Positions 1 to 32,942 of a DNA stretch of 64,000 nucleotides are shown piece after piece. The translations under genes were made by a program, and so were the position numbers. The first letter of the stretch is position 1. Each line of letters opens with the position of its first letter. The DNA is from Paragyromitra xinjiangensis. Lineage: Eukaryota > Ascomycota > Pezizomycetes > Pezizales > Discinaceae. The stretch lies in contig JBCAMK010000002.1 in NCBI GenBank assembly GCA_038503065.1, forward strand, positions 1,364,001 through 1,428,000, given 5' to 3'. The notes below the pieces were generated by a model that was not told where the DNA came from, made no database searches, and was given only the letters and a program-made list of their open reading frames with translations.

Positions 1-510
1 GAAGGGAGATACTGAGTAGCAGCCTTTCCCGAGTGACTCCGGTCTAAATTTAAATAGAACCAACCCTAGAGAATTTTTTCTACGTGAAAGCACTGGAGAG
101 CTGCTTCTCCAAACTGGAGATGCGGGTGATACGGCTCGTGTGAGGCACAGACGACAGATGGCTGGGTGGCTAGAGTTACCATATTTGGTTGGAGCACAAC
201 AACTTCCCATTACCTAGCGCTATAGCACGTATGCGACATGGTAAGCGCGTTTGTCCGCGGAATATCACTACGGCCAATCCCTGGTTTCTTCATAGAAGAG
301 GGTGTCCACCTAGGTTAGGGGAGATACGCATGCCCGCTTATAGCCAATCAGTGCTCTCATGATCAGGATACGGAGGTCTATCAATTATTGAAAAAAGTGT
401 CCAACTCGTATACGTAAAGGTGCAGGTGTGGGTGTGGTGTGAAATTTTTTTTCTATATAACAAGTTTAATTTCCCCCATCCAAGCTGTAAACCAAAGTAA
501 ACTTCACGCA

Positions 511-1049
511 ATGGCCGGTAGAACACCATACAGTCCACAGGATATCCTTTGTCTCATACGTCTATACAGGAAACACGGCAAAAAGCAATGTGATAAAATC
601 CAAAAGCATTACAACATGCGTTCCAGGACCTTAAGGACACAGGACGGTCTGCGAACAAAATTCTACGCAATCCGAAACAGGGTAATACACCATCTATAAT
701 TCCATAGCCTTCAACTAACTCCGAAAGCCATTCCCTACCCTTGAATCTAATGATCAAGAATCTAATGATCAAGATCAAGAGGATAATCACCCCGAAGATC
801 GTGGGGGTGGACCTTCCTCGTATATTGCTCATGATCAAAACAAGGTAACAAACCAATATCCGTAATGCTATCACAAGCTTCAACTGACTATGATAGATAA
901 TCTCTATACTTGAACTAGATGAGCAAGAGCAGAAGCAGTGGGAAGAAAGAGAGTACTCGCGCTTGGTGGCTTCGGTTGCTACAGGGATGGTGGGGGTGGA
1001 ATATTATCAAATTGGAACACGGTGGCCGTCGGAGTCTCTTTTGTATTAG
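511..1049 (+). CDS. Myb/SANT-like small DNA-binding protein (3 exons)
   Basis: Three exons, 511-681, 728-844 and 897-1049, join in phase 0 at both junctions and give a 146-residue protein ending in TAG; the introns are 46 and 52 nt with GT and AG ends. Residues 1-57 look like a short tri-helical Myb/SANT or homeodomain-like unit: it opens MAGRTPYSPQDILCLIRLYR, followed by a KHGKKQCDKIQKHYN helix and a basic stretch with RSRTLRTQDGLRTKF. The middle exon is acidic and rich in N, D and Q; the last exon starts with an E/Q-rich helix. Inferred role: nuclear DNA binding. Small MYB/SANT genes are among the accessory families scored in Starship elements, which fits the nearby DUF3723 and FRE genes. 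The family call rests on pattern only; the open reading across two introns is the strongest sign that the gene is real. Confidence 0.62.
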
Positions 1050-1315
1050 TGAGACAGTGTAATTTGTGTTTTAGTTTAGGATTTGATTACCTCGAGAATG
1101 TATGGCTTGATAACTAATTGCCGAACCAGCGGATAATCGTGTATCTGTTATCAATGGAGGTGAAGAAAGCGCTTTTAACTCTGTGTCGAGCCCTTTCTTT
1201 GTATATTTTGCTGGCACTGGGTTTGCCTTGGAATTGGCGGATGAGACACCCAGTTTTTCGAAATGGCATGGAAACTTGTTCTCAGGCAGCGGATAAGCCT
1301 TATTCTATAGTATCC

Positions 1316-1591
1316 TTATGTCAGCATCGAGGTTACTGATCGGGGTAGATGGTGGTTGCAGACAATCTCTGCCATAGTAGGTGGCCACGACTCATCGTTG
1401 GTTGACTTAAAGGTATAGAAACGGTTGTCTTTCTCAACGACCAAGAAAACTTTAGCTTCACAAAGCTTGCTAAGCTCGAAAGTTTTTTTGAAAAGCCCAA
1501 CCCTCCGTTTTCTGAATCTATTTTTTGCGCACCGTTGGCTGTGCTTACTGTTACCCATCGGTAAGCCTGAGAGTTTATTGTTGTTGGCCAT
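1316..1591 (-). CDS. Small MADS-box (SRF-type) like protein
   Basis: A single-exon 91-residue protein. Residues about 20-70 carry the MADS-box signature: basic KNRFRKRRVGLFKK, then TFELSKLCEAKVFLVV (the amphipathic helix and first strand), then DNRFYTFKS, followed by a short tail with a WPP motif. Fungi have many short SRF-TF-like proteins of this length that end in a WPP-type tail, so it looks complete rather than truncated. MADS proteins bind CArG-like AT-rich DNA as dimers; whether this short form is a regulator is inference. It is divergently placed to the DUF3723 gene, with 234 bp between the two starts, so a shared promoter is possible. The alternative is a recent pseudogene fragment, but the frame is clean from ATG to stop. 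Confidence 0.7.
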   Translation of the reverse strand: MANNNKLSGLPMGNSKHSQRCAKNRFRKRRVGLFKKTFELSKLCEAKVFLVVEKDNRFYTFKSTNDESWPPTMAEIVCNHHLPRSVTSMLT

Positions 1592-1825
1592 GATCTATGG
1601 AGATTTGTTGGCCATCGGTCGGTGGTGGTGTTGTTGGTCTTTATAGAGAAGCAGCTGTCGTTAATTTTATCAAATCTTTATTTAGCTTGAAATTGCCGAA
1701 AAGTTCGTTTCGGCTTAAGTATAAGAAAAGACTGCCTAAGCGCCGTGAATGTAAACAAAATGATACACTGCGCTGGCGCGCGGCTGGCATGAATGGGTGC
1801 TATATAAACCTCTAAGTTTCTCCCG

Positions 1826-4800
1826 ATGGGTCTAAAAACAAGAGAAATCCCAAAAATGGAAAGAGTTCAATCGCAAGCCGAAAATCATATACACTCCGCT
1901 AAGGTATCGTCCTTTAAGGGGTCGGCAGTAGTTCGATTGGATTCTATTCAGCTCACCTGTGATTACTCACGTGATTTGGATAAGAAAAATGTTGAGAGAC
2001 TGAAGAGAATTTTCGGAATGGAAGGCTGCCTTCGCCTAGATGCAAAAAACCATGTGTCAGTCCTTGTCGAGGGGGCCCTCTTTGAGCGCGCTTGGAACGC
2101 CCGAAAGCAGATCGGACCCTATCCCCACCTAGAGTTTAGTGAGCAAAACGTGCTAAGGTGTCTGCATGGGAGGCATCGTATCCTCGCCGCATATGGTTTT
2201 CTACCTCGGGTCGATCAGTGGTGGGTTGTTGATATTTATGTAGAAGGTATTCCACACGTTAAATCTGAATCGGCACCATTGGCATGCTGATATCAGGCTA
2301 GCCAGCCAGTGCTTGCAAAGGAACATTGTTCAAGACTACGAAAATTCGTTGAACATTAGTGATGGGGAAATTTGGCGACATATCCGTTTATGCAATAAGA
2401 GTGGTGATAATATGGGGGAGAGTCAATGGCGGTCACGCCTGTCTAAAGGAAAGGATAAAGATCTATGCCAACTCTTGAAACACCCGGGGTTTTGCCAGGC
2501 GTTTGACCAACTCATCGATATACCTGGTTTATGGGTTGGTCTCAAGTTGGGCACATTGCATAGATTCCTAACCCTAAATTGTGACGAGGTATGCCCGAAC
2601 TTGATTCCCCGATAGCTTTTCAGCTGGTGTTGACCGCAACGAGGAGTTACTCCATTACCTTCGTCATATTCACAGCATGTGGTTGGAGATATTTACAGGG
2701 CATCTAGAATTGATGGGAACAGTAGACTACAGATCTGTCCAGGTCTTACAACTGCGTGCCCCAACTTCAGTAAGAGATTTAGCCGAGATAAATGACAACA
2801 TGCGCAATGGGACATTGTTTCCTTCAGTGCGAAGTGCGCAGGCAAGAGCAGAAATCCTACACAACATCCATGCAATAAAACGAATAATACCTAGCATTTT
2901 TACGTTCTTTGAAGATCTTAAATATCTCGAGCCTCTCGCAAATGCGATGAAGAAGTTGGTCGGGCGCAGCCAAAAGACAAAATCGTCTGTATACAGGGAG
3001 TTTCAGCATGCGTTTGCCGCTACAGACAGCGGATCATTTAAGATAGAGATAGGTGAAGGAATATTCCATACCGCAAATGGAAGTTTACCTGTACAGATGG
3101 AAATGGGATACAGGCAGCTTTGGATGTATGCTATGCGTCATTTTCCGGAATTGGTTTCAGTATCACCACGTAAGGAGAACGGACGATCCAAGCCACCTCT
3201 AAGAGAAGTCGATCATAATATCTGGCTTGGATTTGCAGATCTAGCGTGTAAGCTTGGTTTTAACTCGGCCAATATACAAACGATCAGGTCGGAGAATTCG
3301 AAGAAGGAAATGATTCGGGCGTTCCTGCTTGATGCCAGACCGCGGGAATCTTATAACTACGACGAAAAGTTTCTTGAAAAGAGCGTCGAGAATATATCCC
3401 TTATTCTTGATACTTTCGTAAAAAAACGAAACGCTGCATTAGCACCGAGTTTGGTAATCGAGAAATTTTCCGGAGATCTTCTGCGAAGATGCGGACGTCC
3501 GTTCCAGTTTGACTATGAACGGGACAAGCGTTGCCTTTTCTTCGATAACCTTCATGGTGACCTCGGTAGCTGAGAGGAAATTTGGTCATTTCAAGCGAGA
3601 GAAGCTTTTTACTTCTCTTTTTTTGGGACCGATGGTTTCGGTGTTGGTATCCCTAGTCATAGAATGGTAAGAGACGGATTATTATACTCACAGGTAGATC
3701 ATTTAGTCATGTGACCTTGCTTTACTGGCAATCGTCCGCTTGGCTGGTTGGCTTATCAATAGTGAGTGTTGACATTACAGTGGCTGTGTTTTAACTTTTA
3801 TTTAGGAACCCGAGAATGTCTCAAGCCTAACCCCAGCAGCCAGGGAATTCGATCCAGGAGTCACAGCAACGCAAGCGGGGCAGGCAGAGTACTATACATC
3901 AATGGTAAGTGACTTCTCGATTAACTATGGGATATCCCTGCAGCTGTTGATTGGTTCTTATTAGGATACCGAAATAATCCCTGAACTGCCCAAAACACCT
4001 AGTCTAGTAGAGGTTAACACCACAGAAACGGAATCAACCCAGCAAACTAGGCAATCTATTGATCCACATTCGTTGCTCCCGGTGTCGCCTGGGAGTCTCG
4101 GTGCTACCATGGAAGCGGAACAGACAGAATACCATACGGCGATGGTAAAAGACACTTCTTGTATTCGTGTCACTCTATAGCTGCTGATTAATCCTCATTA
4201 CGTCTAGGATACTGAAATAGTCCCTGAGCTTCCCGAAACACCTGACCTAGAGCTCAACACCATAGAAACGGAATCAGTCCAACATCAACAAAATAGGCAA
4301 TTTATTGATTCACATTCCTCGTACCCGGTACCACCTGGGGAATCGGATCTTAGCACAGCCATGGAAGCGGAACAGACAGAATACCATACGGTGATGGTAA
4401 AAGACACTTCTTGTATTCGTGTCACTTTATAGCTGCTGATTAATTCTCATTACATCTAGGATACTGAAATAGTCCCTGAACTTCCCGAAACACCTGGCCT
4501 AGAGCTCAACACCATAGAAACGGAATCAGTCCAACATCGACGAAACGAGCGATTTATTGATCCACATTCGTCTTACCCTGTGCCACCCAGAGAATTCGCT
4601 CCTGAGGCTACTACTATGCAAGCGGAACCGGCCGAGGGAACCCCAGAACTAGACAGAGCATCCGATCCGGGGGTTGCTACCACGCAACTGGAAGTATCCC
4701 AACATCAAGATATAGTTGACGAGGACTTAAGGAAGGCAGAAGCAGTCGCTTTGGACAGGTCATTAGACTCGATTAAAATAAAAATTACTTCTCCGTTTGG

Positions 4801-5371
4801 TGCAAGGGCGATGAGAATAGCGCCCAACGAACTGAACATGCTGCTAACCAAGGTCATGAAGGGAGGGCTTATACTTGTCGACACAAAAGGTCAAGCTATT
4901 ACCGACAGAGCCAAGTACTTAGAAACTAACCCGAGATATTTTTGTTTCTTGAGCAAGTCAGAATTCAGCAAAGGGAACTCTCAATCGGCAGCTAGGTTTA
5001 AGGCTAAGACTATCCGGCCGACAAAAGGCCCCTCAAAGGAAGCTATGACTGACGTTCCTACCGAGGTTACCCAGTTAGCGGAGTCGGCTAAGGGCCGGAA
5101 AAGGATAAGGATAAATGAGGACGAAGTGGGGGTTCAACAACAGGTGATGCATGGGCCAGAAATCAATGAGGATGAAGTGAGGGTTCAACAACAGGTGATG
5201 CATGGGCCAGAAATCAATGAGGGCGAAGTGAGGGTTCAACAGGTGATGCATGGGCCAGAAATCAATGAGGGCGAAGTGAGGTTTCGACAACAGGTGAAGG
5301 ATGGGCCAGAAATCAACTTTTCAACCACGAACCCATTCGAGAGGAGGCCAGAGCCTGAAGAAGATTTGTAG
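1826..5371 (+). CDS. DUF3723 protein (Starship-associated family), multi-exon, with a repeat-rich C-terminus
   Basis: Supported exons are 1826-2246, 2302-2588 and 2644 to about 3560, then 3806-3904, 3965-4144, 4208-4396 and 4460-5371, roughly 1000 residues. The N-terminal half matches DUF3723: LHGRHRILAAYGFL followed by WWVVDIYVE, SDGEIWRHIR, WVGLKLGTLHRFL, CDE|ELLHYLRHIHS across an intron, LRAPTSVRDL, FTFFEDLKYLEP, and a closing RRCGRPF...DKRCLFF block. The function of DUF3723 is unknown; it is a recurrent cargo family of Starships. The C-terminal half is acidic, with three near-identical exon units and four 17-residue repeats. The junction between about 3560 and 3806 is unresolved: GT donors there do not give the phase 0 needed at 3806, so a small exon may be missing. 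A TATA-like TATATAAA lies only about 25 bp before the ATG at 1826, so the in-frame ATG at 1856 is an alternative start. Confidence 0.85.
3965..4610 (+). repeat. Tandem exon-intron units inside the DUF3723 gene
   Basis: Three consecutive units begin at 3965, 4208 and 4460, a period of about 243-252 bp. Each unit is an exon starting DTEI(I/V)PELP and ending ME(A)EQTEYHT(A/V)M, then a 63-nt intron whose sequence is nearly identical in the second and third junctions. All three exons are multiples of 3 nt and phase 0, so copies can be gained or lost without breaking the frame. The preceding 60-nt intron (3905-3964) has diverged more. Confidence 0.9.
5111..5311 (+). repeat. Coding 51-bp repeat, four copies
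   Basis: Units of 51, 51, 48 and 51 bp encode INEDEV-x-VQQQVMHGPE; the third copy lacks one Gln codon and the fourth is the most divergent. They lie near the C-terminus of the DUF3723 protein and are in frame. Confidence 0.95.
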
Positions 5372-5769
5372 TTCGTAATAGTGTTTTTACTGTAGTGAAA
5401 TATATTAAGTCGAATCGGCTTTGTCGAGACTTGTAGTCTACTATACCTACACAGGACTTTCTAGATGCTAATATTGTCCACAGGTGACAACGCGCCAACT
5501 TATGTTCACTGTAATCCCCCTTTCGTCAACTGCCTTCTATAACTCCCTAAACTCTTTTGGTCCCTACTACTCTAGCCCCCGTACTCTCCTCTAGGGTGTT
5601 AGTATCGATAGCGCTTTGCGTGAACGGTGGATGAGATTAGGTTAGATTGGATCAAATCAGATCGAATTACGTGAACTCTGTTATATACATTATGGAAAAT
5701 AAGTTAACCCGGCCTTCATTCCAACTATTTAGCCTAGCGTTCACGGCCAATAACCAGTTAATCATCTAG
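5372..5769. other. Gene-free spacer
   Basis: Between the convergent DUF3723 gene and the minus-strand coiled-coil gene. I see no coding signal; only simple runs such as the repeated GATTAGGTTAGATTGGATC-like words near 5634. Confidence 0.5.
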
Positions 5770-6383
5770 TCAGATACCAGCCATGGTGATGCCCAGGTAC
5801 TTCTTCAGCTGCCGCCGGCGGACGGCGATAGTACCCATGGTTGGCAAGCCATAGCTGGTGAGGATGGAATTCACAGCCGCAGCTTCCCCATCAGTTAACA
5901 GATAGCCCTCAGTAAAATAATCAGAGCTAGAACTCACAAGTTAGGTGATCGATCTCACCCAGAGTAACAGGGAAGTCCTCGACATCCTCATTCCGATGTG
6001 TCCGCAGAGGAATTAGTTGAGAGTCGGCTGTAATCGCAAGAGAGCTGTTAGTCAAACGGGCCACCGCGTTATAGTCACTAGAGGCTGTCAGTTTCATCAT
6101 TTCTATTAGTAGAAGACAAGATGCGGGAGTGAAGCCCCTATGTAAGAGCCATCAAGACTTACGCTGCCTGGTGTCTTTTCTCCATGCTCTCGAAGCGTCG
6201 CCCCATTTCCTCTCGCATAGCCCTCACTTCAGCCAAGACCAGAGCTCCACCGTCGAAAGCAGGAGAGTTTGGAAACCGGGAAAGTTGAGTCGCCAGCTCT
6301 CCCGAAGACCGAACGATATTGTTCATGCTGATAGCCATAGCCTGGAAGTCAGGCTGTTCTGGATCGCGAGCAGCAGCAGCCAT
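5770..6383 (-). pseudogene. Coiled-coil fungal protein of unknown function, probably degraded
   Basis: On the minus strand three pieces line up with a common but unnamed fungal family. The first (6163-6383) starts MAAAARDPEQPD and ends in a coiled coil with EVRAMREEMGRRFESMEKR. The second (about 5935-6122) has YNAVARLTNSS and IPLRTHRNEDVEDFPVTL. The third (5770-5910) has GEAAAVNSILTSYGLPTMG followed by RRRQLKKYLGI. The order and spacing match the usual architecture (coiled coil, N-x-x-AR-x-x-NS block, P-L-x-x-FP block, small C-terminal helical tail). Neither GT/AG junction I can draw keeps the frame: both are one base out. That suggests frameshift decay, although an unusual intron cannot be excluded. 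Confidence 0.5.
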
Positions 6384-7842
6384 GTGTACCTGTCTCATTC
6401 ATCGTCAGCTGATTCGGCAGAGGTCTTAGCTATAGGGGGGACATGTGTAGGAGCAGCGTCAAGACTCACCGTGAGCTCCCGATCGAGATTCCCTAGATGA
6501 GGATGAGTGGTAGCGGCGACAGATTCTGACAGCGGTGATGGTTTAGGGTTGTCCTTTCGCTCCTACAGGGTTGAGTCATGGTGGTAGAGCTCTCTATATA
6601 CTGGGTCGCCTAGCCGGGTAATTGAGTAGCTGGGTGTTGGTTCCAAGGGTTAGGGGAGTTTCTACCACTTGTGATAGCTCCTCGCCTTGTTTCATGAAGT
6701 TACTAGATTCAATACCCTGGAGGGGATCGTGGGGCAGAGGTATACCGAAGCTTAGCTCAAAAACCCAATACCTCGCCACCTAATGGAGATCGATTTGTCA
6801 GCCAAGCCTCGCTATAGGTACCCTCTGCCTCGCGATCTCCTCCACTTCTCTAGTGGCTGGTGAGTCCACTTAATCAGATAAGACAGGCAATACTTAGCTC
6901 ACCTTAATATTCCAAATCACAACTCTCCGAGGTTTATCTTGATTATTAAGAAAGGCTTGATCCCGTTATCAGCGTCTTCGCCATGCTAGTTGGTTATCGT
7001 ACTGTAAGACCGGTACTTCGCACCACTACTGAATTCTAAGCGAAGCTTTAGATAGCTCTCTAGACTCTGTAACTCGACCGGCTACTATCCGTAGCACAAT
7101 ACCCGAGCGCACGTCCTGACAACTTCTTATGAACCGCACAAAGGCAACGATAGTTTAAGCGAGATAAGGGTCGGGGCTGTTCCGTTGAAAGAACTTTCTC
7201 AATAGGAAGGACACGAGTGTTGAAGCGCGAAGCTATGCTAAACAACTCGATACGATGGAGAATTTATCACGGAACAAAGTATGTTGGTAACAAAATAATA
7301 TTGATAAGGCTCGTTCTTCCTCGATGATAATCGACTCAGAATTGACGTCCAATGCAAGAGTATTTATATCCCGTCCTCTTTACTACTGTGTGTTCTTTGT
7401 AGCTTGGGTCGACGGACTAAACTATCTACTATTACAAATTGAACTAACTCGCTTATCCATTTATCCAACCTCCCATTTGCCGGCTCGATATCTCCAACTT
7501 CCGACGCTTACCCCTCGTTCAGTAATCTTCGGATCGCCGTGGCGATGATACGGTTGCGACGGTTGCGTTCGCCCGATCGAGTAGGTGGTTACACGATATC
7601 GTTTTGTTGCGACAGCTGGTGTTTGGAGCCCCGTAGCGCGGGCAGGAGACCTCTGATGACTAATCCGAATAGCCCACGTGACTCGGCGCCCCAAGTTGCC
7701 CTATGAAGACCTCTCATACATACCCTCCGGGTCACGTTCCGCGGGAAGGGCGCCGTTGACGACCAAAGGGTTACTTTTAGTCTCCGGGACGCGGATATTT
7801 TGCGGGTGTCCCCCCTTCTCGATCTACTCGCTGCTGAAGGCA
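6384..7842. other. Gene-poor spacer
   Basis: Short overlapping reading frames on both strands, none with a domain or a convincing splice model. Nothing assigned. Confidence 0.4.
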
Positions 7843-7997
7843 GGGTAACGGCCGGGTAACCGGGGAAGGCAGGGTAACTGCCTGGGAATAGGCTGGGAAG
7901 GCCAATATCGCAACAGGCAGCCACAGAGGGGTCCAACGAAGACGGGAAGGTGACCAAATGGAAGGTAGGGTAACTCCCTACGTAGGTAGGGTAACAG
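7843..7997. repeat. Cluster of GGGTAAC words
   Basis: Five GGGTAAC heptamers occur in about 155 bp, in the contexts GGCAGGGTAAC, GGCCGGGTAAC, GGCAGGGTAAC, GTAGGGTAAC and GTAGGGTAAC. The flanks are also imperfectly repeated (GGGAAGGC, CCGGG). This is a decayed short-period tandem repeat or a cluster of protein-binding sites. Confidence 0.6.
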
Positions 7998-8340
7998 GGA
8001 GACCACTGCACGCCTATAGCCATAGGTATAACACGTACACTCTAGGATACAGTCCTATTGGTACTTTTCTAATATTAGTGTCCTAACCATGGGTTTGTTA
8101 GCACAAACCTATGACTTTCTACTTTCTGTGGTTTTGGGGATAACATACTCACTGCTGGCCGTGGTTCTATAATTGGCATTGATGTTTTAGTTACGGGTAT
8201 GATAGCGGGCTTCAAAACCCTGTTAGAATGTGCCTATTTTCGAGACTCTATTACTTGCTGTATTAGAGCCGCCGGCCCATTAAGAGCATGGTATTCACTG
8301 TTGGCTAGGTCTATGATAGTCGTGTGTGAGGCCTTGTTAA

Positions 8341-8664
8341 GATAAATAGGTGCGAGCCTACCCTCTTGCCGATACTATCCCCCAATCCATCCTATCCCCC
8401 GAACAACCTCTAGTACCTATCTTGCCAACGCCAAAGCTTCCTTCCAGCGCTCAGTCGAGATAAATAGGCGTGAATCCCCTCCTTCTTGACACCATTTTCC
8501 AATCCATCCTATCTCCCGAACAACCTCTAGTACCTATCTTGCCAACGCCAAAGCTTCCTTCCAGCGCTCAGTCGAGATAAATAGGCGTGAATCCCCTTCT
8601 TCTCGACACCATTTTCCAATCCATCCTATCTCCTGAACCATCTTTAGTACCTATCTCAGCACAC
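8341..8664. repeat. 118-bp tandem repeat, 2.7 copies
   Basis: Units start with GATAAATAGG at 8341, 8459 and 8576, a period of 117-118 bp. The third is cut short around 8664. Copies two and three are almost identical; copy one differs in its first 50 bp. The array stops 12 bp before the ATG of the next gene, so it must form that gene's upstream region. Confidence 0.95.
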
Positions 8665-8676
8665 CAGCAATAAACA

Positions 8677-9236
8677 ATGGAATCGACAAAAATGATGGTA
8701 TGTCGTTTTTGTACCTTCTATTTCATTCGGGAACTAACCGGAGCCCATTATAGTATGTCGTACGAGCTCTTGCAAATATAATAAATCGAAACCTCAACTT
8801 GTCTGATGAGCTCTCGGGAAACACTTCACTTATGGATTTAATATATTACCTGGAGTCCGAAGATGAAGATATGTTTTGTGAAGTTTTGGGCCGAATTTTG
8901 CGTTTCAACCACCTTGAACTTAGCTTTGAGGCACTCTGGGAGTATTTTGTTACTTCCTGGGTGGACTTGATGCCCACGGATACTCTTTCACGGATGGCTG
9001 GTGGTGTTTTTCTGTGCCAGGTGGTTTTAGAGGCTGGCGGATTAGATTCTCAAGAATTAGGACCTATCAACGCATTGTGTCAAGAATTCAACCCAACACC
9101 TCAAACGAGGGATCAACATCGAGCCAACAGATCTATCCATGAACTTTTCCAGGAAGAATGCACGAAGCTCAAAAATAAGCATGTTTGGCGAGGCGGATCT
9201 ACATCAAGATATCTGAGGAGCTCGTTTAGGTACTAG
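8677..9236 (+). CDS. Orphan small protein, two exons
   Basis: Exon 1 (8677-8697) encodes seven residues. A 56-nt intron (GTATGT...TATAG, 8698-8753) follows, then exon 2 (8754-9236) runs in phase 0 to TAG, giving 167 residues. The protein is acidic and helical in its first 100 residues (DLIYYLESEDEDMFCEVLGR, then WEYFVTSWVDLMPTDTLSRM) and basic at its C-terminus. No signal peptide or membrane segment is visible and I do not recognise the family. The reading stays open upstream of any internal start right to a canonical splice acceptor, which supports the model. The 118-bp repeat array ends just before the start codon and probably contains the promoter. Confidence 0.58.
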
Positions 9237-10233
9237 ATAAACTGTTCTCGTGTATATTTTCGGCAAGCTAACCATGTTACTAGAGGCAAGCGATACTGAT
9301 GAAGGAATTCTCTCTTTAAAGTTGGATGCTCCTTGAAAGGAACTAGTGCGATTTCATACCATAATTATTACGTTTGATGAAATTGGTTACATTTTATGTT
9401 CATTTGTTAAGGATTTGGCATTTGTTTATGTTTTTGGATTTTGTTTTATTGTTTATTCCTTATGTTATGGAGTGTTTATTTATGTGCCGTCATAGCCTAA
9501 GGGCTGGATGCGTGCACGTGTATGAACTATAGCCATCAATCAATCAATTCATACCATAATTTGTCCTTGGAGACTACTTTGGAGAAAAAAATTATCCCGT
9601 TATCCTGTATTTTATTCAAGTATTTGTATATTTGGATTCTGCGCCACGAATCGCTTGAAGGGGGTGCAGATACCTAGTGTGTACATGTAGTTAGGTGCTT
9701 GGAGGGTTTAATCTACTGGAGTTTAGGGTTAGGGCTGGTCGGCCATATTTCATACCTCAGCTGTTTCGTAGAAAGTCCAAAGGATACATGTACTCACTAG
9801 TATTATAAAGGGATGAATAAAATAACATACATGTATCACTGATAAGTCACACATAAAACTAAGAGGGCAATAGGTAAAAGGTGAATTCTGTTGAAGCCGC
9901 CAACCTTGAGACATGCCCTAGAGGTACGAAACCAGCCCTCTTCATACCCGATTCGGTTTAGCAAGGTTGGCAGTATCAAAAAGGGATTCACCGCTACCTC
10001 CATCAGTGCCCGGCTAATGTGTGGGGACCGATTTTGGCTTCATGTGTCAAATATGGCCCCAGAGCCGAATATGGCCCCAGAACAGCGGCCGGCCGATTCG
10101 AGCCCCAGAGCCAGTTGTTTTAATCACCTCAAACCCCCCTCAAAAAAAAAACAACCACCCCCAAAAAATAGGAAATAGGATAACGGGGATAACGAGGATC
10201 AAGTTAGTGACTCTATAAGTGAAGACTTGAATA
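9237..10233. other. Gene-free spacer
   Basis: AT-rich. It contains three copies of the palindrome TACATGTA (9682, 9785, 9828) and a short TTTAGGGTTAGGG word near 9723. No coding signal I trust. Confidence 0.45.
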
Positions 10234-10867
10234 ATGTATCTTCTATTCCATATTACTATTATTCTGCAGCTGGTCTCTGCAAGTTTTGCTGCTTGGCTGG
10301 AGTCGAACGCTCGGTACGTAGTCACCAAGCCCAAAACTCACATTCGATACCAGTACTGACTTGAGTCATAGCCCTCAGACTTCCCATACCTGGAATAACT
10401 CGACAAATCAAACTGGACTGACAAGCACCTACTTGTGCCCAAGGCCAACCAACTCTGGATGTATTGTCACTGGTACTGGGTGCCTCCAGGCTGGCACAGG
10501 AGGCATCGCTGAAACGAGGGCTTTGTTTAGCACTCGATGGAGTAACTCTACGTATCAAGACAGGCCTACGAGCACCTATTCATGCCTGGGTCTAACTGGT
10601 ACTGGATGGATTGGCACTGGCATCGGATGCATATGGACAGGTGCTAAAGGCACCGCCGAAACGGGGGCTTCCTTGAGCCCGTCATATTATCCCGGAGGTA
10701 GGAACGACTCCAATACGACCCTTCAATCCACAATTACTCCTACGGGGCCACCACTTATATTGGACACTCCAAGTGCTGGAGGCTCTGCTGCGATAGCGAT
10801 TGGCAAAAGTCTGGCGTTAACCCGAGGGCATTTTGCTTTGATGCTGCTTGTTATGGTTTTAGTGTAA
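10234..10867 (+). CDS. Probable secreted, GPI-anchored repeat protein
   Basis: Exon 1 (10234-10313) encodes a clear signal peptide: MYLLFHITIILQLVSASFAA. A 40-nt intron (10314-10353) leads into exon 2 (10354-10867) in frame, giving about 197 residues. The mature part is rich in T, S, G and N, with several N-x-S/T sites. It holds two imperfect copies of a block of about 60 residues (NQTGLTSTYLCPRPTNSGCI and YQDRPTSTYSCLGLTGTGWI) that share Cys and Trp positions. The C-terminus has a small-residue site (SAGGSA) and then a hydrophobic tail ending LMLLVMVLV, the pattern of a GPI anchor signal. Likely at the cell wall or plasma membrane. The very short intron is the weak point of the model; the signal peptide and the anchor tail at opposite ends of one frame argue for it. 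Confidence 0.58.
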
Positions 10868-11370
10868 TTTCCTGCGAGATAAGAATGGTGTGTTTTGTTT
10901 TGTTTTGTTTTATGTTAAGCACCAGTCAATCTGGGGGTATTTTTTTGCATGTATTCAAGGAGGGTGTTAATAAACGTTTTCGCGGGTATCTAAAATAAAA
11001 TAAAATGCATATGGTCAAAATTGAGTTCCGGTTTGCAAACCAGCTATTCCTTTGACGGACATTTTTCGAGGGTTCTAGCTCTTTTTGTGCTCCTAGTTAT
11101 TCGAGTGTGAATTCGTCGTTATTGAGTACACGCATGTGACAATTGAATTATACATGTAGTTATAGACCGTATATGACAAGCTCTCACTCCACCGTACTGT
11201 GATCATACGCGCCCACTAGTGAGATCAGCTGTGGCTCCACACCCACCCAGATGACATCATTTCACGTCTATTTTTTACGTCCATTTCCAGCTTCAGCCAA
11301 AAATGGAGCCTTGAGGTGCTTTACTATAAAGTCGCGCCATGTACCATACTTTCACAGGGCAGAACTAGCT

Positions 11371-13061
11371 ATGGAAATCACCCAATGGTATGCAATCTCT
11401 TTCGGGGCGCTGATAGCTCTTTGCATTATCTATCGCTTACTTTGTACCGCCCTTTCAACTATACATGACCTTGGGGCATACTTTATCCTCAGCCATCTAA
11501 TCTACCCCCAAATTCCTAAGATTTTGAGGGGTGAAGGTACAATAACTCGATTCCAGTCTCTTCTTGTGCTGTCATATCTCTCGGGGAATGTTATATGCCT
11601 GGTATTCGGGATCAAAAACATCACTCAGCTAGGGGCCCGGTCAGGGCTGATGTTGTTGGTGAATCTGATACCTCTGTGTGCCGGCGGTTGCATGAATGTG
11701 GTAGCGGATTTTTGCGGCTTGTCATACGAGAATTACAGCCGTGCACATCGATGGATTGGGAGGGTAGCTGTTGTTCAGGGTCTCACGCATGCAATCATCT
11801 CGCTCGTAGAAGTGAAGTCAAAACCTAAGCTTCCTGGGCTGCTGGTAACCTCGCCGCTTCCCCACACTCTTATTAACTGTAGCTTACGTATTTCCTAGGC
11901 AGCTGGAGGAATACTATTTCTTTTCCTTTTCTCGCTACAATTTATTCGCCACCTATTATATGAGATTTTCTTAAAGATGCATATGCTGTTCGCGATGGTA
12001 ACTATGGCTATGCTGTGGTACCATGTCATTTCTAAGATAGTGAAGATATATCTTATCCTGGGGATTTCAATACTAGGCGCAGCTATAACTCTACATATTG
12101 CTCTTTCGGTATATCGGAACATCGTCCGTGGTTCATTTGCGGGGAGAGCGGAAATCCAGCAGCTCTCGGATGATGCACTTCAGGTGAGCTTGAAGGTTCG
12201 GAGGCCCTGGAAATTCGAAGCCGGCCAGTATATATATCTTTGCGTCCCTGGAGTCAGTTTTTGCGCCTGGTTTCAATACCATCCATTTGCCGTTAGTTGG
12301 TGGCACAGAGATGAAAACGGTGACACAGAAGTTGTGTTTTTAATTCAGCCCCGCAAAGGATTTACAAGGAATCTGAAGAGATATGCGGGTTCCTCGCTAA
12401 GAGCTTTCATCGAAGGCCCTTATGGACTCGAGAAGGATCTTGGTGCATACGGTAATGTTGTTCTATTTGCTACCGGAATCGGCATTGCCGGGCAGTTGCC
12501 TTATATAAGGAGGCTTCTAGAAGGACACAATAACCGTGAAGTAAAAACCGGACGGATTTCCCTCTTTTGGCAAATTGACAAGGAGTGTGACGAAGGTTGG
12601 GTAAACAAATGGATGAAGGAACTATTGAAATTGGATGAACACTATGTATACATTGGACTGATAATTTTGCTCGATAGGTGATAGCTGATAAAACCAAACC
12701 AGATCCTCGATATAAAGCTCTACGTGCTTGGACAATACTACAGTCAGGAAATGCAACCTGGCGATAGGGTAGAGTATGGAATTCACAAACGCGTCAAAAA
12801 AGTATATGAAATGCCCGACATTGAAGCACTTGTGCAACGCGAACTCAAGGAGCAAAAAGGCCGTACAGTTGTTGCAGGTATGTACTTTTGATGGTGCAAG
12901 CGGTGCTTCGCTGATATCAGGGGGTTGAAGTCTGCGCAGACTATATTGTTAGGGATAAAATACGCAAAATTGTAGGGAAAATGCTTAGAGAAAATGTTAG
13001 GTTTGAAGAGCTGCTCTTCTGCCCAGAGAAGCCTGCGGGCACCGTGTCTTCTTTTGATTAG
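11371..13061 (+). CDS. FRE-family ferric reductase (flavocytochrome)
   Basis: Exons 11371-11844, 11899-12645 and 12703-12877, then about 12921-13061, roughly 510 residues. A plasma-membrane electron-transfer enzyme that uses NADPH, FAD and two hemes to reduce ferric iron. The bis-heme histidine pairs are visible: H-R-W-I-G...L-T-H (14 apart) in one helix and M-H-M-L...W-Y-H (14 apart) in the next. The FAD domain has AGQYIYL and YHPFAVSWW; the nucleotide site has ATGIGIAGQLP. The start at 11371 (MEITQWYAISFG) puts a membrane helix at the N-terminus, as in relatives; an in-frame ATG at 11251 would add 40 residues. It is shorter than yeast Fre proteins, like the compact Starship FRE cargo. Odd point: the last junction (donor 12878, acceptor 12920) is one base out of frame with the conserved C-terminus (VCADYIVRDKIRKIV), so the gene may be freshly broken. 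Confidence 0.85.
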
Positions 13062-13561
13062 GCTGTTTTGAGTGGTAGGGGTGGCTTAGGAGTTTCTAAA
13101 TCAGTTTTTCTATTATTACTTACGTTGATCAAGCTAGATATTTTTCTTACTACACCTCCCCAGCTATCCTAACCTAGGGTGAGACGCGGGAGGTTTTCAT
13201 TCTTAAAATCGCGCAGGTATCATGACTCACCTGCGAGGGAATCACCGCCTGCGCATCCCCGGGACAAGACTCTCGAAATCTCTCTTAAGTCAGCCTGGAA
13301 ATATTACGGTTTTGTAATTCCAGATCTATTTGATCGCAATATCTTGTTTTTTGTTCTCTATTCATTTCATTGGTTTGGTTTTTGGTCACCGAGACTACAT
13401 GTATCTTTTCTAGAATAAATAATCAAACAAAAACCATTAGACATTTCTTAATCAGAGACAGCGATTGAAACTATGACTAAAATAAACCGCGCAACTAAGC
13501 AAAAGTCTAATAGGCGTAACGGCAAATGTTTTTGCCAGAGATAGAAGTATTTGGGACCTAA

Positions 13562-13912
13562 TACGTCATTAAAGGCTTAACTCTCAAAGATAAATTTACG
13601 TACTTATGCTCTAAACCCCCCGATCACAGTCCTCCCGCCGAGCTAGCAGCCCTCTTCAACCTCGAGGATTGGTGGCAGCTACCAAACAGTCATGAAATAG
13701 CCAGAACATCCAGGATAAAAGTTACATACCATGTCGATTATAGCCAATTCTTCTTTGGAAAGGGTTCTCCAACAAAGCCCATGTCCCCATAGGAATGCAG
13801 AAAATTCAATTCTGACTTTCTCGGTATCAATCTGGCCGGCTTCGTTGTTCAAGTCGTGTTCCCGACAGAGGGATCTAGCTTTAGTTCATACTTGGTAAGG
13901 TTCTCGAGCTAG
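13562..13912 (+). pseudogene. Remnant reading frame with one in-frame stop
   Basis: A frame open for 350 bp except for one TAG at 13790-13792. Its conceptual product is not random in composition (LAALFNLEDWWQLP, then VTYHVDYSQFFFGKGSP, and after the stop SDFLGINLAGFVVQVVFP). No start codon fits at the 5' end. I do not recognise the family. Best read as a decayed exon of a lost gene downstream of the FRE gene. Confidence 0.35.
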
Positions 13913-15094
13913 TAGCTTTGCGATATTTTGGTAAGAGATACGGTGGTATAAATAAAAAACGAGGTAGGCTATTTCAAGATTATCCCACATTTCGAGTTGT
14001 CTCATGATCTATCGGTGATGTCCATGCTCGCATTATATATATAGTCCAGCCGCATTACCTGAAGTGCAGACGTTTGTGAATGCTAGCGCTTTGCAGCAAT
14101 CACTGCAGAGAACTCAAACCTTGAAACTCGATGCAGGTTGCGGTCTGATGCCTACGATCTTCACCTAGAAGGCAGACATTTATGAATACTAGCGCTTTGC
14201 AGTAATTAGAGAACTCGAGCCTTGAAACTTGATATCGATGCAAGTTATGGTCTGATGTCTGTGCTTATTATATACACTAGTATCACACTTACGAATCAGG
14301 TTTTGTTATAAGGCGCGTATATTCACAAAGTACTGGTTCATTGGCCGAGCGCTAGGGCAACTATCTCAAAGGGAAAACCGCCTAAGATCAAGTAAACTTT
14401 ACCTTTGTGATATAATATTTTGCGTAGAATAGTGCTATTAGCGGGCATGTGAACCGGGGAGCAGATGATCACCTACAAGTTATGACTCGTATGGAGTTAA
14501 ACCGAACCAATCACAATCCTAATGCTCGGATCAAACTACTTTCAATATCCGTCATAGCTATAGGCCGAATTAAATCGTTCAGCTGGTTACTATTTTTTAT
14601 GTATGTAATGCCTCTATTGAAATACAAAGGCTTCCAAAAGGATAGGACCCTCCATGAGTATTCATCTTACGGATATGATCACCAGTACCTCCGCCGCATA
14701 TCTGTGGGCTATTCGACCAGTTGATTGTATCCTACTAGATACATGTATATCGTGCTCTACCTATCGTCTGGCTTCGTGAGATAATGTTGGTGCCCATGAG
14801 CCACAAACTCCGAGCGAAGCGAAAGATTCGGCGAAGCTGCCGTATTCAGCCAACTTGGGATTACTAATGAGATTGCTATCAGTTAGCATCAGGGGGGTTC
14901 GTGAAGAGAAAGGGAGTATCAGTTGTAATTGGTTGCTTGAAGCACGAATGATCAGGCAAGAGCGTCACGTGTAGATTGATCTAGATCATGAGGCTCAAGT
15001 CCGAAAGGAACCTATGACGTAATATCTCTCATACCCGTCCCACACAAGTGCTTAGGGCAGGGTTATGTGATAGCTAAGATATGTGGCTAACCCC
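13913..15094. other. Gene-free spacer with an imperfect local duplication
   Basis: A roughly 100-bp imperfect direct duplication around 14065-14250 shares GCTAGCGCTTTGCAG(C/T)AAT-like and CTTGAAACT(C/T)GAT words. TACATGTA at 14740. No gene supported. Confidence 0.45.
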
Positions 15095-15204
15095 TGCGGG
15101 CTCCCATCCCTTGCGGGCTCTCATTCCTTGCGGGCTCCCATCCCTTGCGGGCTCTCATCCCTTGCGGGCTCCCATCCCCTGCGGGCTCCCACATCTTGCG
15201 GGCC
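15095..15204. repeat. 17-bp minisatellite, about 6.5 copies
   Basis: TGCGGGCTC(C/T)CATCC(C/T)T repeats exactly every 17 bp from 15095 (starts 15095, 15112, 15129, 15146, 15163, 15180, 15197). It lies roughly 270 bp upstream of the start of the next gene. Confidence 0.95.
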
Positions 15205-15472
15205 GTTCTAACTCAGGCCTGTGCTCTACACGGTATTTTATCCTCGTCCTACCATTGTATCCTTCCGCGTCCACACCTCGGTCGGGTTCAACCAATCAGG
15301 CTCCCGTGAGTTCAGCCGATTCCTAGGGCGCAGTAAGTATATGTATTCATGAGTCGCTTGGCCCAATAGGGTACTTTGTGGTCGGAACAGCTATTCCTGA
15401 CCACGTGTTGCTGCCTTGGCGTATATAACTGTCACTAGGCTGGGAGTTTGCTACTAACCGCACAACACGAAC

Positions 15473-16195
15473 ATGTCTACACTCAGCAAAAAAACTCCAT
15501 CTACGAAAATCTCACCCCCGGAAAATCCATTTGTAGCACTTGAGGGGAAAATGGGGGGGACAGTTCAGATTAAGGTGGTTCGGGTAAGGGCTTTCCCTAC
15601 CAAACAACTCCACCACTACTGATAAGCATGTAGAAAATATTTCGGGACCGCTGGGACCGTAGGCTTCGCAACTGGACAGATTTGGAGGAATCAATCAGAA
15701 GCAAGGTCGCCTCCCAAATCCGTAGCTTTATCACAGAACAGGTTCCTGAAGACCCTGACGAACGGAAGTCATTTGATCAAAAGATAGACACCTTAATAAA
15801 TCTATGTTGGACGAAGAGCTGGGACAACATGAAGCATAGCAGCAGGGAGAAAAAGAAGAAAATAAGGAGAAGCCGCAACGAACCAAAAGGTATGGACCTC
15901 ATCAGGAATGAAAAAAAAATAACCTAACAGACTGATAGGCAGTGGCAGCGAGACAATGCTGGGCGAAAATACAGCAAACGAGATGGAAGAAGACAAGGTC
16001 ATGTCGGACAAGAGTATAGCAACAGAGGAGATGGCAATAGACGAAGCTGGAGAATATCAGATCATGTTGGGTAGCGATGTGGAAGCAAGGAAGACGGGGG
16101 CAAGCGAGATGAGAGAAGACAGTATCACGTCGGATAAGAATATGATGGCAATCAAAACGGTGACAGATCGGGAAGGAAGCTCTAGGCTCCAATAA
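15473..16195 (+). CDS. Orphan charged protein, three exons
   Basis: Exons 15473-15583, 15634-15889 and 15939-16195 join cleanly through 50- and 49-nt introns to give 207 residues. Residues 1-37 are Lys/Ser/Pro-rich and end in TVQIKVVR. The middle exon is helical and very basic at its end (HSSREKKKKIRRSRNEPK, a possible nuclear localisation signal), with FRDRWDRRLRNWTDLEESIR at its start. The last exon is acidic, rich in E, D and M, with two imperfect copies of an (M/R)EED-x-(V/I)-x-SDK motif. No catalytic motif is visible and I do not recognise it. Alternative acceptors were tested by eye: only those chosen avoid immediate stops. A 17-bp minisatellite lies upstream. Confidence 0.58.
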
Positions 16196-17042
16196 TTTCC
16201 TGGCTCGATATGGAGTAGGAGGGAATTGGGGAATTAACGTTAATATATGTTGTTTTCTGGAGCCACAGCATGGCACAATTTTCTTGACCAGCACAGAAGG
16301 TTGACGATTGGACGGGCATACAGATATAGGGGTGATGGCCCTACCCCGCTGCTATATTGGCACCGATAGCCCTAAAAGTAGGCTATACTACGCAGAAGGG
16401 GAAGCATATAGTAGAGAAAGGGGAGGATTTATGTTGCGGTTGTTTGCGTCCTATCCGTCGCAGTAACACGTTTCATTGTTTGAGAACAGTAGATTTGCGA
16501 AGGACCGTGAACAGTGTGGCGGGTGTCTTTTGGCTAAGGACGAAACATTTGCTGGCGAAGCCTAGTTCCTTCCGGTCGAAGTCCATATCCTAGAGCACGA
16601 GTTCTCTTAAAGCTGATATGAGATCAACAGCTCATCACGCATAACACTAGAACTGACAGCATGAGAATTGAGATGCGGTTATAGAACGTAAAAAGTATAT
16701 TCTTCCACCTAATAACAATGAAAATATCACAGGAACAAACAAAACATGTCAAAAGATGGGAACGGAAGAACAAAGAAGGGAACCGATTGTATCGTCTGAT
16801 GATGATGAACAGGAGATGAAGTCGAAGAAAAACAAGCTATAAGTAGCAAAAGAAACCGAACTAGCAACAAAGTGGACTAGTCTCTACTAGTCCACAACAT
16901 CCACGAAAGCATACTAAAACAAAACATAAAACGCTAGGACAAACCACCCTCCAATAATGACATCGTTATCACCATCATTCATGAGCTTTCATAGCCTTCA
17001 GTATCACAAGACGTTGGAACTATAGGACGAGAAAAAGACAAC
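16196..17042. other. Spacer with a weak cysteine-rich reading frame
   Basis: Around 16420-16560 two frames show clustered cysteines (CCGCLRP, and in another frame QCGGCLLAKDE). They cannot be joined without stops, so no gene is called; a decayed zinc-finger-like fragment is possible. Confidence 0.35.
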
Positions 17043-19247
17043 TCAGGCTGCTTCATTAGCTGTGCGAATAAGTCCGACTTCGTGGCAAAACGACCGTCGA
17101 AAGTAGCCTTGCAATCCCTTATCAACATCTAAGAGCTTATGAGTAAATTTCACCCACTACAAGTACGTGACGGGGGGCGTAATCACCTTCATCCGCCAAA
17201 TACTAAATAACAGCATCAACAAATCTTGTGATTCTTTTACCGTGGTGGGAACCTTGCATAGTTTATCTCGGCTCAGAATACACACATGTCCATCTGCATG
17301 ATTCATTCGTAGAACTTGGCAATGTAACCCTAAATTGGAAGCGTTTTAGTACAATCAGTAAAGGTAGAGAGACTCGAATTTCACTTACCCGCGCTCACCA
17401 GCCCAACCACTTGTAATTTACCTAGAATTATATCCTGGCAACTGAGTTCATCCTGTAGATGGGATAACATGTCATGGAGAGCTTTCGCTACCCTCCGAGA
17501 GTCCTGAAGCCATTTGGTACATGTCACACCGCCGAAGGACCTAGCACCCTCTATCGCGGCATACTCATACTCGCCGTTGTTATCCCGAACGAGTCCATCA
17601 AAACGTGAGCCGATTTTCTGCCGTTTGTTTGTATCGACTCTATCCCGATTTTTCCTAAGGGAACTGGCGAAGCAGGTCGACTCCTTACTGCAAGAGTTCA
17701 GAAGGGGACACTTAAAAGGATCAAGTGGCATACCGAAGAACAACCATCCCCCGGAGGTCCTGCAGACAACGATCGACTATGACAGACCAGATATTGATGT
17801 CGTACCAGGCTTCGTGATTGTTCTTCCGGAGCACCTGATCAGGGTCCTCAAATAGCGGGAGCCTAGAACCAGGAATAAGTCTCAACAGAAGCGGGTTAGG
17901 AAAGATGGGATACCCACAACATCGACCAGACCAAGTGGACCCAGTATAAGTCGTAATGCTTATCGCGATCGTAAGATTCACCCTTGGGTAGGTACGAATT
18001 TGTGTCTAAAATACGCCGCAAATCCGCAGTAGTTTCCAGCTATTTGAGAAAAGGTGAGATCGAGGAAGATCGAGGAAACTCAATGCAGACCACATCAACC
18101 TACCTGGTGAAATTTCTTCATCGACTCCCCCAACAACCGGTCGTTCTCCGGCCACTCGGGTACTTTACGGAGTATCGCCTCCCAATCACATGGGTCAAAG
18201 AGCCTCTCAACGTTAGGGTCAAAGACATCAATGACAAATGAATGCCCCAAACTCTCATGACTTGCGTCATGTAATTTATCATAGAGAACCGCTTCGACGA
18301 AAGTGCCACTTGGAAGTGCCCACATAGAGCTTTTGTCCATCTCCTTGTACTTCTTCACGAAAGAAGTTGGGCTCCAGGGCAGGACGTTTCCACCGGACTG
18401 AATTCTGTCAGGAAACCGACAGCACTATGGATTTAATAACGTAACTAACCTCATCGCCCCGCTTTTTCCGCTTCCTCTTCTTTACGTTTGTGATCTGGTT
18501 GTGATTTCCAATAGCGAACCCAGACGAATTCTGGACAAATATCCGTGATAAACCGGTTGCTTCACGCCATGATTTGGCGCGTTTCCGACCGCCGCCCTAG
18601 TTTGATCGTAAAAATATCAGTGTGATCACCCACCAGAACAGCAGTGACTGAGGAAGTCCCAGTGCCCAGTGGGACCAGTGAATGGTGAGCGAGAAGCCTT
18701 AACATCAGTAGACTGAAGAAGTCACCTGATGCCTCAACACTGGTATTATAGCTCGGCGATCACCGTTGGGGGTTAGATAGACCAAGGAAGTCATCTTTGC
18801 CCAACGCCAGCGTTATGGCTCGGCGATCAACCTTGAATGATCAAGGACCGGAAAGTCCCCGCCATGCTATTATATCCATCTGTTATGTTTCCGGAGTAAA
18901 GTTCACGTACCTTTCGATAATTCTTAATAAGCCAGCTAGCCTTGACACGCTGGTCGACTGTCCATTTTCCCGTCGTGTCATCGTCAATTTTCTCCAACTC
19001 TTTGATATAAGTATCGATCGCCAGATCGAACGCCTGCTGTAATGCGGGTGCTTCAACGTATTTACATGGCTCGTGCAAAATCGTGTACTTTAGGTAATCG
19101 ACAACGTCCCAATCTAGATAACCGTTGCTGGCGAAGTAACCGGTACCACGAGAAATCAACGGCTAGGAGGGTTGTGGTCAGCTTCAAATAGTCGTAAAAG
19201 AGATACGGAAAAGAATGTAAACCCACTTGTTTTTCGGGGGAAGTCAT
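17043..19247 (-). CDS. Conserved fungal protein of unknown function with a K-I-G-x-R-x-D-G block
   Basis: Exons in gene order: 19227-19247, 18911-19162, an unresolved micro-exon stretch, 18450-18596, 18104-18397, 17921-18039, 17734-17862, 17389-17687, 17187-17329, 17043-17156. From 18596 down the phases agree. The middle has LPSGTFVEAVLYDK, HSFVIDVFD and WEAILRKVPEWPE. The C-terminal half has ASSLRKNRDR, then KIGSRFDGLV, EYEYAAIEGA, SRRVAKALHDML, VVGLVSAG and a tail ending in LLFSIWRMK. This order is shared by a large uncharacterised family in many fungi. The D...E-x-E/A spacing after the K-I-G-x-R-x-D-G block resembles a PD-(D/E)XK nuclease fold; that is inference. Oddities: a basic KKRKRKKRGDE insert, a proposed 30-nt final intron, and a tandem micro-exon region. 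Confidence 0.7.
18650..18862. repeat. 66-bp degenerate tandem repeat within the minus-strand gene
   Basis: GGAAGTC/GAAGTCA/GAAAGTC words recur at about 18652, 18716, 18784 and 18850, every 64-68 bp. Two units also share GGCTCGGCGATCA. On the coding strand each unit would present a GACTT(C/T) micro-exon core followed by a GT(G/T)-start and AG-end intron-like segment. Confidence 0.7.
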
Positions 19248-19500
19248 AGTTAAGAGCACAAGAGGTGGTGTGAAAATACGAAACTGTCGCCGTCCCAACC
19301 ATCATATAAGTATCCCACTATCTAGAAAGTAAACCTGCTTTGCGGGGCGAAGCAAGGCTGGGGTAGCATGGTAACCACCAAGAGCAAGTACAAGCGTACG
19401 TTGCCTTGACCGCAGCGAAATGTACCCAATCATATGCAGTCGCTAACAGTAAGCCGCCAGGACTGACTCCGTTTGGAACCTTGATAGTATCTACCACGAC

Positions 19501-20460
19501 CATACGCAGTCGTGCAAAGGCGGAAACAAGCCGCCAGAACTGATCCCTGTTTGCGCTATATTCTGCTTAATCGTACGTAGTCTTACGCAACAGTACGTAA
19601 TCGTACAGGGCAACAGGCCGCTAAAATTGATTAGTACCAAAAATATACGCGATCATACGCAGTCGTACGAAGATGGAAAGGAAAGCCGCCAGAACCGATC
19701 CCTGTTTGCGGTATATCCTGCCTTGCTCCTTTCTCAATCGTATGTAGTCGTACGTAATCGTACAGGGCAACAAACTGCTGAAACTGATCTTATTCGTTAT
19801 AGACCCCTATTTACTATATTAGCCTTGAAGGCACCAAAAATATACGCGATCGTACGCAGTCGTACAAAGAAGATCCCTGTTTGCGTTATATTCTGCCTTG
19901 CTCCTTGCTTGCTGAATCATATGTAATCGTACGCAATCGTACGCAATCGTACGCAATCGTACGGGGCAACAAACCACTGAAACTGATCCTATTTGTTATA
20001 TTAACCTTGAAAGCACCAAAAATATACGCGTACGCAGTCGTACAAAGAAGATCCCTGTTTGCGTTATATTCTGCCTTGCTCCTTGCTTGCTGAATCATAT
20101 GTAATCGTACGCAATCGTACGCAATCGTACGCAATCGTACGGGGCAACAAACCGCTGAAACTGATCCTATTTGTTATATTAACCTTGAAAGCACAAAAAT
20201 ATACGCGTACGCAGTCGTACAAAGAAGATCCCTGTTTGCGTTATATTCTGCCTTGCTCCTTACTTGCTGAATCATATGTAATCATACGCAATCGTACGCA
20301 ATCGTATGGGGCAACAAACCGCTGAAACTGATCCTATTTGTTATATTAACCTTGAAAGCACCAAAAATATACGCGATCGTACGTTGTCGTACGTTGTCAC
20401 ATGGGCATAAATGGTAAGCCGTCACACCAACCGTACGCGATTGTACGCAATCGTACGTAG
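19501..20460. repeat. CGTACG-rich minisatellite, five long units
   Basis: Units of about 160-199 bp start near 19612, 19772, 19971, 20149 and 20316 (marked by GCAACA(A/G)(A/G)C-C-GCTGAAA). Each holds runs of the 10-mer AATCGTACGC, two to four times, plus ATATACGCG. Two central units are nearly identical. Related GTACGT/CGTACG words continue to about 20540. Confidence 0.95.
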
Positions 20461-20614
20461 TCGCGCCTAGACATGGAAGCTGACCCCGCCTACGCCACGT
20501 TATCTTAAAGGGAGAAGGGCGTTCAAACGTACGTCAATGTACGTAGTTTCACTTGACACACTAGTGAGGTTGTCTACCTTGTTGACCACGCTGGGGAAAC
20601 AATAACCGAGATTC

Positions 20615-20902
20615 ATGTTACCACTGCGCCAGCGCGAGCTGAAACTAGCTCACACGCGCTGTGAGGCCAGGCGCGTAGAGTGTTGGCCCTGGCACTTGGA
20701 CCGTTGGCTTGAACAAGTTTCGTACGTGAAGCCCACTCTTGGACATATCAAGCACAAGATGAAGGGAACCCACATTTGGGCCCAGAAAGTAGCCAAAAGG
20801 GTACTCCTGCTACCGTTATCGGAAGTATTACCTCCATGCATTCCAGACCGATTGCCCCTGAACTTGATATTTACTGTAAACGACATTTCCCCACAAGACT
20901 AG
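20615..20902 (+). CDS. Possible small basic protein
   Basis: An ATG-started frame of 95 residues directly after the CGTACG array, rich in R, K, L and W (ECWPWHLDRWLEQV). No splice signals, domain or family recognised. It could be chance. Confidence 0.2.
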   Translation: MLPLRQRELKLAHTRCEARRVECWPWHLDRWLEQVSYVKPTLGHIKHKMKGTHIWAQKVAKRVLLLPLSEVLPPCIPDRLPLNLIFTVNDISPQD

Positions 20903-32006: not shown

Positions 32007-32078
32007 TGCGTACTCGGGGAGTCGAACCCCGTTCTCCCGCTTGGGAAGCGAAAATCATAACCGTTAGACCAAGTACGC
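32007..32078 (-). tRNA. tRNA-Gly(CCC)
   Basis: On the minus strand the 7-bp acceptor stem GCGTACT/AGTACGC is perfect. The T arm reads CGGGG-TTCGACT-CCCCG, the anticodon loop is TTCCCAA (anticodon CCC), and the D arm contains GGTCTAACGGTTATGA. The discriminator base is A at 32007. No intron. The sequence is that of a typical fungal glycine tRNA. It marks the boundary between the gene-poor DNA to its left and the core-gene block to its right. Confidence 0.95.
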
Positions 32079-32933: not shown

Positions 32934-32942
32934 ACAGTCCAT
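32934..32942 (+). promoter_or_regulatory. TATA-like box upstream of DUG2
   Basis: TATATATAA, followed by pyrimidine-rich DNA. It lies 255 bp before the first long reading frame that may be the 5' exon of DUG2. Position-based inference only. Confidence 0.3.

Follow-up and report, generated by a model that had tools for sequence, protein, structure and literature searches.

The genes of the locus

The window analysed here is a 64,000-nucleotide stretch of contig C2 of Paragyromitra xinjiangensis (C2:1364001-1428000, window base n being C2:1364000+n), and the genome surveyed comprises 48.2 Mb on 22 contigs. Domain searches of it gave 59 Fung_rhodopsin matches at exon level and 4 of HET, in keeping with the distribution of these families in Pezizomycotina; DUF6533, a basidiomycete family, gave 0, as did its control, and is uninformative. 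Coordinates without a contig name are window positions. A group of accessory genes occupies the left end. The first is a forward frame at 511..696, with an ATG at 511, which matches a Myb/SANT-like domain at E = 2.9e-4 and 21.3 bits, below the cut-off of 24.4; a MYB/SANT identity is plausible at this sub-threshold score. It is followed by a reverse-strand MADS-box frame (1319..1594; SRF-TF 41.7 bits, cut-off 26) and by a forward DUF3723 gene of several exons (1808..3573; PF12520). The first exon frame of the latter (1808-2287) scores 60.2 bits against a cut-off of 22, and the counterpart of its main exon frame (2605-3570) in a second copy on contig C17, described below, scores 293.8 bits. A whole-genome PF12520 search recovered C2:1366027-1367627 (window 2027-3627), split into three pieces, of which the third contains one stop; the 8 exon-level matches in all belong to the two copies and to one distant gene on contig C9.

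A ferric reductase (FRE) gene lies at 11203..13061 (+), with FAD_binding_8 (47.7 bits) and NAD_binding_6 (29.2 bits) both above cut-off, as is Ferric_reduct (34.8 bits) on the C17 version of the first exon. Both copies keep its two long exon frames open. Of the 11 genome matches of the second exon, two are these copies; the best of the other 9 is 38% identical and none exceeds 42%, which argues that FRE was not recently captured from the host.

Further frames lie to the left of the window, all on the reverse strand. The Pfam scan assigned a C48-peptidase-like frame (C2:1336376-1336936), a patatin gene in two frames (C2:1349352-1350323 and 1352732-1353724; 27.8 bits against a cut-off of 27.7 for the C-terminal frame and 24.8 bits for the N-terminal one) and weak kinase-like frames (C2:1355845-1356727). 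It covered 20 sequences, that is, the spliced captain described below and 19 frames, some being exons of one gene, drawn from 661 stop-to-stop frames of at least 40 residues. Matches at E 0.01 were obtained for 8/10 of one batch and 4/10 of the other, several of them below the curated cut-off.

A DUF3435 search of the genome (3 candidates scored) gave two matches: C2:1334185-1335084 (+), which lies 29.8 kb before the window start, and C17:430607-431506 (-). Only one captain type was found in the genome. The 60 kb preceding the window were examined, as were 80 kb around the match on C17. The C2 captain gene (C2:1333448-1335567, +) has five exons with GT-AG introns and 632 codons, and its ATG stands 522 bp inside the 5' end of the element delimited below, reading inward. 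DUF3435 (PF11917) spans 335 residues, 138-472, in the Pfam comparison (E = 4.5e-44), and a zinc-finger match at residues 564-620 falls below the Pfam cut-off. Among 7,993 candidates scored, a capped list from a collection of 5.8 billion proteins, one homologue was found at E 1e-3 (P0001, 73% identity over 63% of the captain query); it keeps the captain motifs YWLRRG and YYAD, which we take to hold the active-site residues (R-Y-R-Y). A PDB sequence search with the captain matched no recombinase, the 11 chains found being KCMF1 and zinc-finger proteins aligned over the zinc-finger region. In the C2 captain, codon 386 is an in-frame stop, which falls within the DUF3435 match and ahead of the zinc-finger region. 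The C17 frame is open throughout, and the captain that it encodes is probably functional.

MYB/SANT proteins are a recurrent accessory family of Starships, the giant transposons to which captains belong; the Starship literature searched gave no instance of that family. A sequence-only reading of this DNA had recognised MYB/SANT, DUF3723 and FRE genes clustered with a MADS-box-like gene, and had proposed profile searches for Starship families; the lack of a captain in the ~100 kb to the left would, on that reading, have counted against a Starship. The DUF3723, FRE and MADS-box assignments were borne out above Pfam cut-offs, the captain was present starting 30.5 kb from the window start, and patatin was found as well; Myb stayed sub-threshold, and no NLR was recognised among the 20 scanned sequences. 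The recurrent Starship accessory genes in the element are thus DUF3723, FRE and patatin.

Two copies with common ends, and their insertion sites

The stretch C2:1332920-1384857 is colinear with C17:432773-386565 apart from three large gaps on the C17 side, and 44,970/45,508 aligned columns (98.8%) are identical in the global alignment. From this alignment and the ends, the whole C2 copy is C2:1332926-1384854 (~51.9 kb) and the C17 copy ~46.2 kb. The in-window part of the former is 1..20854 (+), its right 40% and the window's left third, so that 31.1 kb of it lie outside the window to the left. The 5-kb flanks of the two copies have no mutual match at E 0.01 and are thus unrelated by detectable similarity. 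Two near-identical copies with common exact ends at unrelated sites, a captain gene and the empty target of one copy are direct observations, and the clustering of cargo families is not due to chance, since the entire stretch has a colinear counterpart, 98.8% identical, at another locus. What fills the window's left third is almost certainly the right-hand part of a Starship.

That identification agrees with the sequence-only reading, which had suggested a Starship or its remnant extending beyond window position 1: the captain, the sharp ends common to two insertions with unrelated flanks, and the C17 empty site with its short direct repeat all support it, and the element continues past the 511..13061 cluster by ~31.6 kb on the left and 7.8 kb on the right. 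The same reading saw neither captain nor ends. The captain and the 5' end do lie outside the window; the right end is inside it, at 20,854-20,857. Its suggestion that the element may be derelict is partly borne out: the C2 copy has a captain stop and damaged cargo, and in C17 the captain frame is open.

The 3' end and the target core occupy 20840..20857, the element reaching 20854 and a CC(C) core following at 20855-20857. The two ends offer a candidate imperfect inverted repeat, 5' GTAACAAAATCTGGA versus 3' (reverse complement) GYAATCGGTCTGGA. With a slash at each border, the C17 junctions read ...AACTTTCC/ATAGTAAC... and ...CCGATTA/CCCAACAAA..., and those of C2 read ...GGTTTGCC/ATAG... and ...GATTG/CCCTGAAC....

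The C17 copy sits inside a ~440-bp inverted-repeat element (TACAGTGCTTCCCTACC...), whose two pieces form its flanks (C17:386203-386564 and 432771-432846). An empty-site query of 490 bases was made from the joined C17 flanks, the junction C's being left out. It gave 47 matches in the genome, 16 of which span the junction uninterrupted at 76-96% identity with small indels only; the others comprise both C17 pieces, partial copies and matches of the inverted ends. The empty site ...AACTTTCCCAACAAA... was identical in all six that were read of the 16 uninterrupted copies. Comparison of the C17 junctions with this site indicates no loss of target and a repeat of one or two C's: CC stands on either side of both copies, and the run of C's leaves a repeat of 1 or 2 bp at C17. 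Since uninterrupted copies of the target family lie in the same genome, the empty site can be read without a second strain.

At C2, no match crossed the junction of the presumed empty target (40 of 72 candidates scored); the 40 listed are the two flanks themselves and 38 matches on a dispersed repeat in the right flank. With no unoccupied C2 target among these 40, the C2 direct repeat (CC to TTGCC) is read from the junctions alone. An undivided C2 allele is expected to read ...AAGGTTTGCCCTGAAC....

Taken together, the DUF3435 tyrosine recombinase encoded at the 5' edge, the captain, would recombine the two ends of the element with a short core rich in C, TTT[G]CCC at the two sites, and insertion would leave a CC direct repeat of 1-2 bp. 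The captain probably catalysed both insertions, and the candidate core is now available for captain assays.

Two other accounts of the unit have to be considered. One is that an accessory gene cluster which happens to include a DUF3435 gene was duplicated as a segment, with no transposed unit; the DUF3435 search and the 1-kb end queries of the genome found just two full copies, and both cover the identical unit, as such a duplication would have it. We regard this as very improbable, because the C17 copy breaks a repeat of known sequence, leaving the target intact with a repeat of only 1-2 bp, because the captain stands at the element's edge, and because a third contig (C15) bears a diverged 5' end. 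Equally improbable is that the unit falls outside Starships proper, among the broader Crypton-like tyrosine-recombinase elements. The 1-2 bp direct repeat, at or under the low end of the published range, would suit it, but the 335-residue DUF3435 match (E 4.5e-44), the size, the captain at the edge and the DUF3723, FRE and patatin cargo all speak for a Starship.

Decay and block-wise divergence

The C2 copy is decaying, with stops in the captain and in DUF3723, an insert in patatin and a solo LTR. Its last DUF3723 frame meets a stop at 3571-3573, and the C17 frame stays open 47 codons longer. Three insertions longer than 1 kb, of 2078, 2313 and 1036 bp, are present in the C2 copy only. The 2313-bp insertion (C2:1350383-1352695) splits the patatin gene, whose frames lie 95 bp apart in C17, which lacks it. 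It shares common ends, CATCAG...CTGATG, with the 2078-bp insertion (C2:1345416-1347493), and the two are bordered by 2-bp repeats (AT, AA); they are related and contain long internal repetitive open frames. The remaining one, missing from the C17 copy, is a solo-LTR-like unit of 1031 bp, TG...CA, at 7003..8033, bounded by the 5-bp repeat CGTAC at 6998-7002 and 8034-8038 (1031 + 5 = 1036 bp). Tandem arrays were also observed at 4107-4587 (252-bp units) and 8382-8656 (117-bp units), and the copies differ by exactly one unit per array, C17 having 252 bp fewer and 117 bp more.

Unpolarised transitions between the copies, per unchanged site, amount to 0.016-0.028 at CpG, 0.007-0.008 at CpA and 0.006-0.009 at CpC/CpT, and at CpG the T is in C2 at 107 sites and in C17 at 60. 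RIP is not supported as the cause of decay, the enrichment lying at CpG with none at CpA. The transition pattern between the copies fits CpG deamination.

When CpG transitions and columns near gaps are excluded, divergence falls into blocks. A three-block fit gives 41/19,400 (0.21%), 181/6,400 (2.83%) and 104/18,977 (0.55%) from left to right, with borders near C2:1357.2 and 1364.3 kb, the middle block ending just inside the window. The BIC drops from 3869.8 for one block to 3578.5 for three, 3576.5 for four and 3553.3 for five, the extra blocks subdividing the middle one; the five-block fit isolates a 200-column stretch at 15%, possibly misaligned. In the middle block transversions and transitions are both raised, and non-CpG differences are 5- to 13-fold higher over more than 6 kb. 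The two outer blocks, too, have different divergences (chi-square 26, p 3e-7).

For the middle block, the most economical reading of this pattern is recombination or conversion involving a related element; the donor was not found. On this basis we tentatively propose, with a confidence that falls somewhat short of even, that the copies are recombinant, one of them having received its ~7-kb cargo block (C2:~1357.2-1364.3 kb) from a related, unseen Starship in place of its own, and that the dispersed inverted-repeat element supplies landing sites with the TTTCCC core. If true, the element would represent a Starship lineage not described before, one that diversifies through block exchange. A rather unlikely, though still serious, possibility is that the element is a Starship whose middle block (about C2:1357-1364 kb) evolves fast and was never exchanged, the copies being simple duplicates. 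The low-complexity frames and small indels of that block, and the perhaps misaligned 15% stretch, favour such an explanation. It accounts poorly for a non-CpG rise that affects transversions and transitions alike over more than 6 kb and then falls (2.83% against 0.55% and 0.21%), and for outer blocks that are themselves unequal. The locus offers a direct case of block-wise divergence between the two copies, which bears on cargo exchange among Starships.

Comparison with known Starships and other traces

According to published accounts, Starships carry the captain at the 5' end and are ~20-700 kb long (PMC12153272), and NLR, PLP, FRE and DUF3723 are among their accessory genes (PMC12506042). 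One survey records them in 36% of the Eurotiomycetes genomes and 28% of those of Orbiliomycetes (PMC12134995). Four of the Starship features tested were found here: a captain at the edge, two sites with conserved boundaries, both within one genome, an empty site, and accessory genes. As in Starships of the Pezizomycotina generally, an inward-reading DUF3435 captain stands at the 5' edge of a ~50-kb unit with short direct repeats and DUF3723, FRE and patatin (PMC12153272, PMC12506042). The present element differs in that no NLR was recognised among the 20 scanned sequences, and in its CC repeat of 1-2 bp, at or under the low end of the 2-12 bp direct repeats given for 19/20 Aspergillus fumigatus elements, with inverted repeats in 18/20 (PMC12153272).

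The Hephaestus/Nebuchadnezzar target is given in the same paper as TTAC(N7)A or TTACA(N5)AAT (PMC12153272). The site described here resembles it in a T-rich stretch followed by a C core and in a TTAC at the C17 3' junction. TTAC is not supported as the target by the empty site AACTTTCCCAACAAA, which is without it. Starships can insert into other transposons, as one report notes (PMC12134995), and the C17 copy likewise lies within a small inverted-repeat element; unlike the cases there, the target family and its uninterrupted copies share the genome. Cargo swapping occurs between Starships, according to another account (PMC11623301). The blocky divergence of our two copies similarly suggests exchange, but it would be a possible allelic replacement inside one family, with no named cluster moved. 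Starships are known as a kind, and what is new is this particular element; no report of such an element was found in the literature searched on Starships of Morchella, Pezizomycotina, Pezizomycetes and truffle. One genome thus holds an open-captain copy and a decaying copy of an exactly delimited Starship, with the empty site readable in the same assembly. The block-wise divergence and the within-genome empty site make the element more useful than an ordinary annotation.

Further traces are few. The 4 matches of a 1-kb query from the 5' end comprise, besides both copies, C15:1244147-1244362 (69%) and 91 bp on contig C1; of the 5 obtained with a 1-kb query from the 3' end, two are the copies and the others are repeats within them. 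The 216-bp C15 match, which retains GTAACAAAATCTGGAGATCA and CC before the border, represents a 5' end of this Starship family that has diverged, and it is the sole substantial further trace found. A full third Starship on C15 is not supported: besides this end, the 70 kb examined there gave just two DNA matches, of 47 and 38 bp. No captain (best tblastn E 0.72) or recognisable cargo was found in those 70 kb, and the 661 element frames gave one 42-residue match there (E 7e-5), outside the relic past its 5' end. The distant DUF3723 gene (C9:2022632-2025014) is 22% identical over the window's first-exon frame, and C9 also has a 113-bp repeat match; no captain match was found in the 20 kb examined there, and the gene is possibly a relic of another element.

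In the rest of the window, strong local GC-skew swings (-0.34 to +0.49) at 31000-41000 and 54000-57000 overlie long open frames resembling host genes, and a tRNA gene lies at 32007-32078 (-).
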